This document shows positions 12,304 to 16,046 of a stretch of DNA of 64,000 nt, piece by piece. Source of the DNA: Methanohalophilus halophilus (GTDB lineage Archaea > Halobacteriota > Methanosarcinia > Methanosarcinales > Methanosarcinaceae). Under the pieces are notes generated by a model. It had not been told where the DNA came from. It ran no database searches and was given only the letters and a program-made list of their open reading frames with translations. The translations under genes were made by a program, and so were the position numbers. The stretch is from contig NZ_CP017921.1 in the NCBI RefSeq assembly GCF_001889405.1, positions 1,316,057 through 1,380,056 of the forward strand. The letters are read 5' to 3'. The stretch's first letter is position 1, and every line of letters starts with the position of its first letter.

Positions 12304-13212
12304 TCAACGCTGAAATTTCAGGTAGTCATCAATATCATAAAACTGTGTGTTTTTGCCGCCTAAATACATTCTTGTCCACCACAATACTGTCAGGGGCTGG
12401 ATTACTGCAAAGGACAGAACAAAATCGGCAAAGGACCAGAATGTGCTGAGTATTTCAATGGAACTCAGGACTTCTCCTGCTACTCCTGTGAGTATTGACA
12501 GGCCAATCAGAATCAACCAGAGGATGACTGTATCAAGTTTATTGTTCATGAAAAATGAGAACCCTTCTTCCAGGGCTTCCAGGGGCTCCAGTCCACCGAC
12601 AACCAGTGCATATTCTGCAAAAGTAAAAACCAGCTTTACCACGATAGCATAGAATATCCAGACAAATATTCCAAAAACAAGGATCAATGTTCCAGATAGT
12701 GCTTCTTCAGGATTTTGCATCAATATGCTCAGATCCCCGATTGCCAGTATTCCGGGGACTACGAAGATTATTCCTGCGAGGATAATCAGCATTACTATGA
12801 ATCTGGTAAGGAAGAGGTTGATAAGGTTCTTTTTTCCTGATTTAAACATTTCATTGATGCTGGTGGACCCGTCTTTAAGAGCTTTTTTTGCCATTCCTAT
12901 GGCTCCGCCGTAAAAATAGGAACTTATCAGGGTGGATACTACGAATGCTACGATAAACAGGAGTATGAACAATCCCATATTTTCATAAAAGGCGGCTGTG
13001 AGGACTTCAAATGCCATTTCAGGATTGATATTTGTGGGATCTGTTGTAATTTCCTGCATTGCAGGCATAACAAATATAATGACCGCAACCATGAATATAA
13101 CAAACATTGCAAATATGCCTGCAAATATGTTCAAAAAGAATGGGATGCAAATATTGAGATTGTGTGTCCAGGTCTGAAAGCCTTTTCTCAGAACCGTATT
13201 TATATTTTCCAT
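12304..13212 (-). CDS. Uncharacterised six-helix membrane protein
   Basis: 302 aa with about six long hydrophobic segments, separated by short loops rich in Gly, Ser and acidic residues. The pattern resembles archaeal membrane proteins related to the glycerophosphodiester phosphodiesterase membrane domain or DUF7847 group, but I see no catalytic motif. The start ATG 13212 is preceded by GGGAGATA. Its stop abuts the ncsA stop directly (convergent, no gap), and it is divergent from the TudS-like gene. No function can be assigned. Confidence 0.72.
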   Translation of the reverse strand: MENINTVLRKGFQTWTHNLNICIPFFLNIFAGIFAMFVIFMVAVIIFVMPAMQEITTDPTNINPEMAFEVLTAAFYENMGLFILLFIVAFVVSTLISSYFYGGAIGMAKKALKDGSTSINEMFKSGKKNLINLFLTRFIVMLIILAGIIFVVPGILAIGDLSILMQNPEEALSGTLILVFGIFVWIFYAIVVKLVFTFAEYALVVGGLEPLEALEEGFSFFMNNKLDTVILWLILIGLSILTGVAGEVLSSIEILSTFWSFADFVLSFAVIQPLTVLWWTRMYLGGKNTQFYDIDDYLKFQR

Positions 13213-13327
13213 TAAATATTATCTCCCGATTTTCATATCGTGATAGTTATATGGAAGTTTCTTTATGGATATAACTGCGTTTCCATAAGTCTTCTTATTG
13301 TATAAAGATTCTCATACAGGTGATTCA

Positions 13328-13789
13328 ATGGATGCCGAAAATGATAAAATTATGGTAGTTTCCCACTGTCTTCTCAACCCTGAGTCACGTCTTGCAGGGA
13401 TTAAAAAACCGGGAAAATTTTCTCCTGGAAAAAATAATGTAATCCAACTTCCCTGTCCGGAACTGATATATTTTGGTTCAAGTCGCCGGGAAATTACCAG
13501 GGACCAGTTAATCCACCCGGCCTACAGGAAATTCTGCAGGCAATTATTCGCCCCTTTTGCAGATATGATCGAGGAGTTTTATCGCAGGGGCTTTTCCATT
13601 GAATTTGTGGGTGTGGGAAAAAGCCCCTCCTGTGCTGCAGATCTCACAACCGTGGCAGGTCCTGCAGGCCGGGTGTCAAATTTCACACATGAACATGTTG
13701 CTGGCAGGGGTGTTTTTTTTGAAGAAATTGAAATTGAAATGGTCAGACGTGGGATATGCTATAGTATGCAGGATTGTCACACACAGTAA
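13328..13789 (+). CDS. DUF523/TudS-related putative desulfidase
   Basis: Small protein of 153 aa. VSHCLLNPESRLAG, QLPCPELIYFG and GKSPSCAADL place three cysteines as in DUF523/TudS proteins, where three Cys hold a [4Fe-4S] cluster that removes sulfur from thiolated bases such as thiouracil. The CLLN start is like the TudS-related CD3072 subgroup. The frame is open from about 13298, but ATG 13328 has a good AGGTGA five bases upstream and gives the normal N-terminus. It lies a few genes from ncsA, which adds sulfur to tRNA, but the activity on thiobases is inferred. A TATA box for the downstream RNA starts right after its stop. Confidence 0.78.
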   Translation: MDAENDKIMVVSHCLLNPESRLAGIKKPGKFSPGKNNVIQLPCPELIYFGSSRREITRDQLIHPAYRKFCRQLFAPFADMIEEFYRRGFSIEFVGVGKSPSCAADLTTVAGPAGRVSNFTHEHVAGRGVFFEEIEIEMVRRGICYSMQDCHTQ

Positions 13790-13790
13790 G

Positions 13791-13800
13791 GTATATATAA
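13791..13800 (+). promoter_or_regulatory. TATA box of candidate sRNA
   Basis: GTATATATAA follows the TAA of the preceding gene by one base and has a purine-rich BRE-like AGTAAG before it. Its centre is 26 bases before G13822, where an archaeal transcript would be expected to begin and where the stem-closed RNA starts. Confidence 0.6.
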
Positions 13801-13821
13801 CATGTAGTCATCACGGGGTTT

Positions 13822-13897
13822 GCTGACGGGTTGTCTTTCTTTTCCTAAACCCCCCACTCCCCAAATATTAAACCCCCCTTAAAACCCGTCAGCTTTT
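13822..13897 (+). ncRNA. Candidate stem-closed small RNA with C-rich loop
   Basis: GCTGACGGGTT (13822-13832) and AACCCGTCAGC (13883-13893) form a perfect 11-bp stem closing a 50-base loop. The stem is followed by TTTTCCC, a plausible end signal, and preceded by a consensus TATA box at the right distance, so the stem would close the two ends of a transcript of about 76 nt. The loop is pyrimidine-rich and holds two exact copies of TAAACCCCCC (13846-13855, 13869-13878) with a CCCC run between them. Unpaired C-runs could pair with G-rich ribosome binding sites. The region lies between convergent genes and has no ORF. It could instead be a long-loop terminator for the TudS-like gene; the TATA box argues otherwise. 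Confidence 0.5.
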
Positions 13898-14012: not shown

Positions 14013-16046
14013 TCAGAATATTCCTGCCCCGATAAACAGGGAGGAGAACAGGATTGCAACTACGTTTACTACTTTTATCAGTGGATTTATTGCAGGTCCT
14101 GCCGTGTCCTTAAATGGATCTCCTACGGTATCTCCCACAACAGCTGCTTTGTGAGCTTCGGAACCTTTTCCACCATGGAATCCGTCTTCGATAAGTTTTT
14201 TTGCATTATCCCATGCACCTCCTCCATTATTCATTGTTAATGCAAGGAGTAATCCGGAGGCGATAATTCCTATAAGAAGACCTCCCAAAGCCAGCGGTCC
14301 AAGAACGTAACCTACAATCAATGGAGTAGCTACAGCAAGGATTCCTGGAATTGCCATTTCTCGAATGGCTGTGGCGGTAACAATGTCTACACATTTTCCA
14401 TATTCGGGTTTGGAAGTACTTTCCATTATGCCGGGAATCTCTTTGAACTGACGCCTGACTTCATTGATAACTGCAAAAGCCGCTTTTCCGACAGCCTGCA
14501 TTGTTACTGCACTGAATACGAACGGCAAAAGAGCACCTATGAACAGGCCTGCCAGAACGACCGGATTATCAAGAGCAAGTTCTCCCATTTCCAGATTTAC
14601 TTTGTATCTGTAATCTGCAAAAAGAGCCAATGCACCAAGGGCTGCTGAACCAATAGCATATCCTTTTGTTACAGCTTTTGTTGTGTTACCAACTGCATCC
14701 AGGGCATCAGTAACCTCGCGTATTTCATTAGGGAGGCCTGCCATTTCTGCAATACCACCGGCATTGTCGGTGATTGGACCGTAGGAATCCAGAGTAACAA
14801 TCATTCCAGTCGTGGAAAGCATTGCTGCTGCTGCGATTGCTATTCCGTAGAGTCCCATTGCGGGGTCCACTGCCCCGCCGTCAAAAAACCCGCCGGCAAC
14901 AAAAAAGGAGCCCAAAATACCACTTACTATTAATAAAAGGGGTAGCGCAGTACTTTCAAGTCCCATTGCCAGGCCCGCAATTACATTTGTACCTGCACCG
15001 GTTTCAGAAGCTTCTGCTACTTTTTTAACAGGCCTGTAACTCGTTGAGGTATAATATTCGGTGAAGAGGACCATAAGTACCATTATGAAAACACCTACAA
15101 GGGATGCATAATAGATGTTGATGTTACCGATAAGCATGTCTGTTACGAAATAGAATGCAACAAGACAAAGAATTGCAGATACTGCCACTCCCTTATAGAG
15201 TGCTTTCATTATCTTATTGTCATTTCCTATACGTATGAAGAAAATTGATATGATGGATGCAAAAACAGCTACTGCACCGAGAATTAATGGGTAGATCACT
15301 GCGTTGGGATATGCTTGCAGAACCTGAGTACCAAGCAGCATAGCTGCAATTACGGTAACTACGTATGTCTCAAAAAGATCTGCTCCCATGCCAGCACAAT
15401 CCCCTACATTATCTCCTACATTATCGGCAATTACACCAGCATTTCGTGGATCATCTTCAGGTATGCCTGCTTCAACTTTACCTACAAGATCTGCTCCAAC
15501 ATCAGCGGCTTTGGTGTATATACCGCCACCAACCCTGGCGAAGAGACTGATAAGACTTGCACCAAATGCAAATCCAATTATCTGGTCCACATCACCGAAC
15601 ATGATGTAGAATACACTGGTACCAAGCAGAGCCAAACCTACTACTGCAAAACCTGATACTGCACCACCATGAACTGCGACTTGCATAGCTTTTTTCAGTC
15701 CTTCTGATGCAGCGTGTGCTGTTCTTACATTTGCTCTTACAGATACATTCATTCCGATATATCCTGCAGCAGCGGAACTTATAGCTCCTACTATGAATCC
15801 GATAGCAATTTTTCCACTGTTTTCTTCCAGCAATACATATATCAGAAAAGCCAATATTACAGCAACTATAGCCACTGTTTTATATTGGCGGTTCAGATAT
15901 GCCATGGCCCCTTCCTGTATCGCGGTGGCAATTTCCTGCATTCTTTCGTTACCTGTTCCTTCCTTGAGGATACGGGTTGCGAAAAATGCAGCAAATATCA
16001 GACTTACGATACCTGCCAGAGGGGCGAGGTATATTATATCCTGCAT
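14013..16046 (-). CDS. hppA: Membrane-bound proton-translocating pyrophosphatase
   Basis: Couples hydrolysis of pyrophosphate to ion pumping across the cell membrane. Length is 677 aa with about 16 membrane segments. Substrate motifs are [38 protein letters not shown] and a late [26 protein letters not shown] ends the catalytic set. The diagnostic GNTTKA carries Lys where potassium-dependent enzymes have Ala, so this should be a potassium-independent pump, usually proton-specific. Start ATG 16046 has AGGAGAA upstream. The soluble pyrophosphatase at 43328-43828 competes for the same substrate. The gene is divergent from the secreted protein gene at 16330, with a 283-base gap that holds an inverted repeat. 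Confidence 0.96.

Follow-up and report, generated by a model that had tools for sequence, protein, structure and literature searches.

A small RNA gene beside the H+-pyrophosphatase gene of Methanohalophilus halophilus, a member of a broadly distributed, multicopy family of probable regulatory RNAs of methanogenic archaea

Described small RNAs and the hairpin element of the window

For LhrC1–5 of Listeria monocytogenes, the published description (PMC4132741) reports CUCCC(...)UUUU motifs, guanosine poverty, masking of Shine-Dalgarno sequences and a likeness to Csr RNAs. Three small RNAs (sRNAs) of Methanosarcina mazei are described in the literature: sRNA162, of 191 nt with three stem-loops, is encoded between MM2441 and MM2442, and its authors saw it in no genus other than Methanosarcina; sRNA154, encoded between MM3337 and MM3338, is NrpR-controlled, with the operator GGTA-N6-TACC and two loops; and for sRNA41 a review reports masking of several ribosome sites of the ACDS mRNA. 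These accounts of ribosome-site masking agree with a preliminary description of the locus studied here, which had cited Methanosarcina sRNAs acting at ribosome binding sites. In Methanolobus psychrophilus, nine conserved, cold-induced sRNAs, multicopy and intergenic, are described in a further report (PMC5378194).

The window, a stretch of 64,000 nucleotides, belongs to a host genome that is a single contig of 2,022,959 bp. The features of the locus are as follows.

12304..13212, minus strand: gene for a DUF7847 membrane protein, divergent neighbor (PF25231, E 7.5e-14; same neighbor in 10 other loci)
13298-13789, plus strand: putative desulfidase gene related to TudS (NCBIfam NF045597; score of 93.4 bits, under the cut-off of 130)
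13790..13800, plus strand: promoter part, with the TATA box TATATATA at 13792-13799 (read from the sequence; kept in congeners)
13822..13893, plus strand: small RNA gene, a closed 72-nt hairpin with predicted transcript ends (folding, covariation and homologues)
13822..13832, plus strand: 5' arm of the stem, GCTGACGGGTT (11/11 paired; 7/11 pairs changed on both sides in alignment A3)
13833-13882, plus strand: loop, 50 nt (sequence)
13836..13843, plus strand: U-rich tract on the 5' side of the loop (TTTT in the RNAs of 81/83 family members, TTTTT in 58/83)
13846-13855, plus strand: first copy of the decamer TAAACCCCCC (sequence)
13852..13867, plus strand: conserved loop core CCCCACTCCCCAAATA (invariant in 20/20 rows of A3)
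13859-13862, plus strand: third C-run, CCCC (sequence)
13869..13878, plus strand: second C-run, the second copy of TAAACCCCCC (C-run kept in A3 with variable length)
13883..13893, plus strand: 3' arm of the stem, AACCCGTCAGC (11/11 paired; evidence as for the 5' arm)
13894..13897, plus strand: TTTT after the stem, a possible termination site (sequence)
14013..16046, minus strand: H+-pyrophosphatase gene, convergent neighbor (PF03030, E 8e-271; same neighbor in other genera)

The perfect 11-bp stem, the 50-base loop and the TTTT after the second arm are present as the preliminary description had them. Its spacing of exactly 26 bases between TATA box and stem holds when counted from the middle of the box; the distance is 30 nt from the first base of the box, and 22 nt separate its last base from the stem. 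The two identical TAAACCCCCC decamers and the third C-run are likewise all present, but the decamer pair lacks conservation, its first site being altered in each of the five close congeners. The element contains no noteworthy reading frame.

The window has six perfect 11-bp inverted repeats with loops of 3–60 nt, of which two overlap, whereas ten windows simulated with a Markov-1 model have 2.3 on average; taken by itself, the stem is therefore weak evidence. The folding energy of the 72-mer is −17.55 kcal/mol (z −5.74), a value that 0 of 200 shuffled sequences reached. It is the conservation described below, not the stem by itself, that places the element above chance.

At gathering score, Rfam 15 returned only tRNAs from the whole window, which holds a single one, and from six class-1 and 13 class-2 loci; at E values up to 10 there were chance-level matches only. 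The preliminary description likewise had matched the element to no named family. A literature search covering titles and the openings of abstracts found no description of an archaeal RNA with this motif, which is not proof that the family is unpublished. As a multicopy set of small, G-poor RNAs with redundant C-rich (UCCC) loop motifs beside U-runs, LhrC1–5 resemble the hairpins studied here; unlike them, they are bacterial, have two stem-loops and a terminator, and carry a shorter motif. Shine-Dalgarno pairing has been demonstrated for LhrC and would be a prediction for the hairpins, whose likeness to LhrC is one of description only. The M. mazei RNAs are, like the hairpins, archaeal, trans-encoded and from the same organism family, and ribosome-site masking, proposed for the hairpins, is reported for them. 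The window element, a single 72-nt hairpin beside a pyrophosphatase gene, does not have the form or place of sRNA162, and no NrpR operator GGTA-N6-TACC was seen by eye upstream of it or of the Methanosarcina pyrophosphatase-locus copies.

Conservation of the hairpin and of its locus

A 683-bp region including the element is 89–92% identical to five congeners. In two distant congeners (G006 and G002), the TudS-like gene is only 67% identical and the intergenic DNA around the element can hardly be aligned, but the TATA box, the stem and the loop core persist; the TATA box is kept in all five close and both distant congeners. Between the window and the distant congeners the stem varies in a compensatory manner, reading GCTGACGGGTT/AACCCGTCAGC, GCTGGTGGGTT/AACCCACCAGC and GCTAGCGGGT/GCCCGCTAGC. 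Covariation, for which the preliminary description had proposed a search in other Methanosarcinaceae, was assessed on alignment A3, which comprises 20 homologous sequences, 17 of them distinct. In the stem, 98.4% of the cells are paired and seven of the 11 pairs are changed on both sides, around a loop core without variation. The covariation score is 0.578, compared with 0.233 in shuffled alignments (0 of 500 reach the observed value) and a maximum of 0.110 when the stem is slid along the alignment, the last comparison being one in which the stem is favored because it was named from the same sequences. RNAalifold predicted ten of the stem pairs unaided, six of them changed on both sides. The TAAACCCCCC repeat is strain-specific; the conserved core is the loop motif ACCCCCACUCCCC, ahead of which lies a U-run.

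An exact scan of genome contigs for CCCCACTCCCCAAATA gave 93 stretches in many phyla. Among the 80 of these 93 matches that were listed, the 21 archaeal stretches were inspected, and 17 of the 21 have the hairpin. The hairpin-bearing stretches belong to Methanohalophilus, Methanolobus, one Methanosarcinaceae metagenome-assembled genome and Methanoperedens, the last with a different stem; the archaeal stretches L031, L036 and L047 lack a hairpin, and L089 is an ambiguous case.

In several genera the element is retained next to the H+-pyrophosphatase gene. By blastp clustering of the genes at 27 loci, a set in which L240 is unplaced and several loci are other copies or end early, 12 loci have the pyrophosphatase in the vicinity of the RNA and 11 have the DUF7847 protein there; at one locus (L028) the DUF7847 gene is kept and the downstream genes are different. 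In G101, of a genus (g8) taken as Methanosarcina because G101 shares the element L248 with a Methanosarcina record (L089), a copy with a GTGAGCGGG stem adjoins the pyrophosphatase gene (PF03030, E 7.1e-49), as does the window copy. A second locus, at which the RNA lies between genes for a Na+/H+ antiporter subunit and Sua5, occurs in two genera. The TudS-like gene stands between the DUF7847 gene and the RNA in Methanohalophilus and is missing from the Methanolobus loci examined, where the RNA is present and the upstream neighbor is divergent.

This arrangement bears on the proposal that the hairpin terminates transcription of the TudS-like gene or forms its 3' end, or that it serves as leader for a downstream gene. 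The TTTT after the stem, and the end of the TudS-like gene at 13789, just upstream, would suit such a role. An own TATA box, however, separates the end of that gene from the stem, a conserved G-poor loop of 50 bases would be odd for a terminator, and elsewhere the element would have nothing to terminate or lead, since it lies between a divergent gene upstream and a convergent pyrophosphatase gene downstream. Read-through from the TudS-like gene, which the preliminary description had named as an outcome that would count against an independent transcript, is disfavored because the Methanolobus loci keep the RNA without that gene. A terminator or leader is thus rejected as a very improbable reading, the least probable of those considered.

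Related hairpins and their promoters

The covariance model R1 has matches in 89 of 111 genomes of the family (Methanosarcinaceae) at E ≤ 0.01 and in 105 of 237 genomes across the class at E ≤ 0.001. Besides the pyrophosphatase-locus copy, it reveals further hairpins in which a GTGAGCGGG/CCCGCTCAC stem encloses the same motif. From 22 of these further hairpins a second model, R2, was built; it matches 102 of the 111 genomes of the family at E ≤ 0.1, including 84 of the 85 good-quality ones. In this R2 search and in the phylum sample below, the match counts per genome are upper bounds that may include antisense matches, which score because the stem is nearly self-complementary; hits of R1 and R2 are not independent in those genomes from which the models were built. 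Among the nine family genomes that R2 does not match, six belong to genus g10 and two to g9, the ninth being G117; the eight genomes of g9 and g10 are small, and the absence there may be due to loss or low completeness. In a phylum sample of 392 genomes, 90 have a match at E ≤ 0.01: 61 of these fall in the family itself, eight in further families of its order, 14 in family f6, which belongs to the class, and seven beyond the class. Four of these seven are in family f14 and three are chance-like. The f14 hairpins share the stem, the U-run and the TATA box and have a different C-rich loop; this loop, CCAATCCATCCCCTACC in L231–L234, may mark a sister family or a change of seed.

In its own genome the element has five sites: the window copy, 999391, 1613831 and 1593346 on the plus strand, and 1018380-1018431 on the minus strand. 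The DNA upstream of 999391 and 1613831 (L164 and L165) is nearly identical, so these two copies arose by a recent duplication that included the promoter; 1613831 adjoins a NosD-like gene and 999391 a SepSecS-like gene. In some genomes, copies are clustered, lying about 200 to 1,400 bases from one another (G009:C1:1751436 and 1751645; G055:C9:39174, 39839 and 40562; G490:C9:14498 and 14730).

For comparison of members, 85 on the sense strand were picked by hand (22 of the pyrophosphatase-locus type and 63 others), mostly among 127 matches; antisense matches, duplicate loci, the weak matches L230, L236, L242 and L248, and the Methanoperedens match L094 were left out. Dropping L078, which has no upstream sequence, and merging identical members left 83. 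They comprise 31 different stems, and at each of nine stem positions between 25 and 31 of the 31 are paired. CCCACTCCC is present in 70 of the 83 members and occurs twice in 28, and 16 of the 18 exact CCCCACTCCCC sites in five genomes lie within such hairpins. Stem sequences therefore diverge, whereas the pairing of the stem and the motif in the loop are kept. TTTT directly follows the stem in only six members and lies within 20 nt of it in 38. By eye, two further hairpins with another stem, TGCGGGGGA/TCCCCCGCA, were seen in G063. A further C-motif element of Methanosarcina, also recognized by eye (L248, G101:C1:3656605-3656652; L089, 6281-6441), is closed by GGGCATC/GATGCCC, contains a small inner hairpin and is caught weakly by the models.

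Promoters were assessed by a strict positional TATA count, a looser TATA score having separated poorly from shuffled sequence. The strict pattern peaks in the 6-nt bins at −36 (31 of 83 members) and −30 (25 of 83) before the stem, with 0–12% in the other bins; 52 members have a match between −45 and −15, and the peak lies 25–36 nt before the stem. In the M. psychrophilus report (PMC5378194), the TATA-to-start distance is 19–22 nt, which places the predicted start at or just before the stem. Synteny, compensatory stem changes, the fixed promoter distance and the paralogues together strongly support an independent gene for a small RNA whose ends are closed and whose C-rich loop is open.

An element acting as DNA, such as a dispersed repeat, a G-quadruplex or i-motif, or a protein site, would accord with the several copies per genome, the G-rich minus strand and the duplication of 999391 and 1613831 together with their upstream sequence. 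The compensatory stem changes, the TATA spacing and the strand-specific loss of G nevertheless fit an RNA, the synteny is fixed, and members with a single motif have too few G-runs for a canonical quadruplex, leaving a DNA-level element improbable. A mobile or viral origin was rejected: an exact 23-mer of the class-2 form occurs in no viral contig searched, and the window element has no match in phage or plasmid records.

Proposed action of the loop

Loops of the family members contain 42% C and 2.6% G, compared with 12–16% G in the flanks, and with this composition they are expected to stay open; their G poverty is what a guide loop needs. In predicted folds the loop is open in six of eight members, an inner helix being weak in L222 and stronger in L231 (f14). 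By sequence and predicted fold, the element thus presents an open C-rich motif in a structured small RNA, as do sRNAs of the LhrC kind.

The reading that we prefer, and to which we give an even chance, is that the element is a gene for a non-coding RNA of about 72–80 nt with its own TATA promoter, that it represents, at the H+-pyrophosphatase locus, a multicopy family of most Methanosarcinaceae and of related archaea, and that it acts in trans by pairing of the open loop. Gene anatomy, conserved pairing, promoter spacing and family are evident in the sequences themselves; that the RNA is transcribed and acts in trans we infer from them. The TATA promoter would drive the RNA, and the 11-bp stem would close its ends so that the loop, almost without G and rich in C and U, remains open. 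Pairing of the ACCCCCACUCCCC motif with G-rich stretches, most of them close to ribosome binding sites, would then lower translation, and an Sm-like protein may bind the U-run. One loop carried by several copies with different promoters could bring different signals to bear on one target set. By analogy with LhrC, base pairing in trans with G-rich mRNA leaders would be the likeliest mechanism.

Complementarity to the loop was sought in the genomes. Outside the five RNA genes, the host genome has no perfect 11-nt complement of the motif. With at most one mismatch and the RNA genes included, complement sites outnumber those of the reversed pattern in the host genome (27 versus 15), G013 (21 versus 8), G063 (15 versus 5) and G119 (33 versus 13), but are fewer in G196 (40 versus 57). 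In 464 kb of the host genome, a motif-complementary run of at least 7 lies near the start in seven of 395 leaders of open reading frames of at least 120 amino acids, against one of 395 inside genes; the starts were chosen by Shine-Dalgarno score, which biases this test to G-rich leaders. Among 132 arrangements of the letters, the real order ranks fourth (tied) for runs of 7, with three runs of 8 or more, and only 53rd for runs of 6. The candidate target leaders include those of an exported protein (GAGGAGTGGGGATG), a lipoprotein and a peroxiredoxin, named from our own reading of the proteins, and at least one of the seven matches (L286) looks, on the same basis, like a mis-called start. Masking of ribosome sites by the C-runs, as the preliminary description had proposed, is no more than plausible, the leaders being slightly enriched in runs of 7–8, with no enrichment for runs of 6 and no perfect 11-nt site.

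The main rival, possible but on the unlikely side, is that the RNA is a decoy or scaffold in which an RNA-binding protein binds the C motif of the open loop and is titrated by the RNA copies. The GGA repeats of CsrB and RsmZ bind CsrA. Like the family, CsrB and RsmZ have a short motif repeated in open loops and several copies; they differ from it in being larger and in having a GGA instead of a C-rich motif. We know of no candidate protein that binds the C motif. A motif that stays invariant while the stems vary, and that the RNAs carry once or twice, would fit a protein sponge, several copies per genome and a weak target signal point the same way, and the strict conservation of the motif across the class would also fit a protein ligand. 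The f14 genomes, however, keep the stem with a different C-rich loop, and a protein that reads the motif is therefore not easily compatible with them. The authors of the LhrC description (PMC4132741) themselves point out that repeated motifs in loops resemble those of Rsm/Csr RNAs.

Pairing of the loop with mRNA leaders, the preferred reading, is compatible with a further proposal, which concerns naming: the Methanosarcina copies might be an sRNA already catalogued, for example sRNA41. Masking of several ribosome sites in the ACDS mRNA, as reported for sRNA41 in the review, would suit a C-rich loop. Such an identity is unlikely, since the ACDS leaders have no distinctive complementarity to the Methanosarcina loop, for which reason they were rejected as targets, and sRNA154 and sRNA162 differ from the hairpin in place or form. 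The M. mazei catalogue or the nine M. psychrophilus sRNAs could include members of the family. The latter are multicopy, conserved and intergenic in a genus in which the hairpin family has several copies; they differ in number, the g5 genomes (taken as Methanolobus) having 2–6 R2 matches and not nine.

A broader reading, held tentatively, is that the family is an ancient global regulator of Methanosarcinales and their relatives, with several sRNAs per genome that have one invariant C-rich loop, either an anti-ribosome-site seed or an archaeal CsrB-like sponge, and with each copy on a different signal. The trans-acting archaeal sRNAs with worked-out targets that were found in print are each from a single genus. 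With a class-wide multicopy family that has one invariant loop motif and members in the genetically tractable Methanosarcina, archaeal sRNA use would be directly testable, and the covariance models allow these RNA genes to be annotated.

Pairing with a 16S rRNA stretch of bacteria was also considered and rejected, TGGGGAGTNNGG matching in the host genome a single site besides the five RNA genes. That site (L307, G000:C1:1058035-1058046) is intergenic, a possible target leader, and lies upstream of an open reading frame that, from our own reading of the protein, resembles a trimethylamine methyltransferase.
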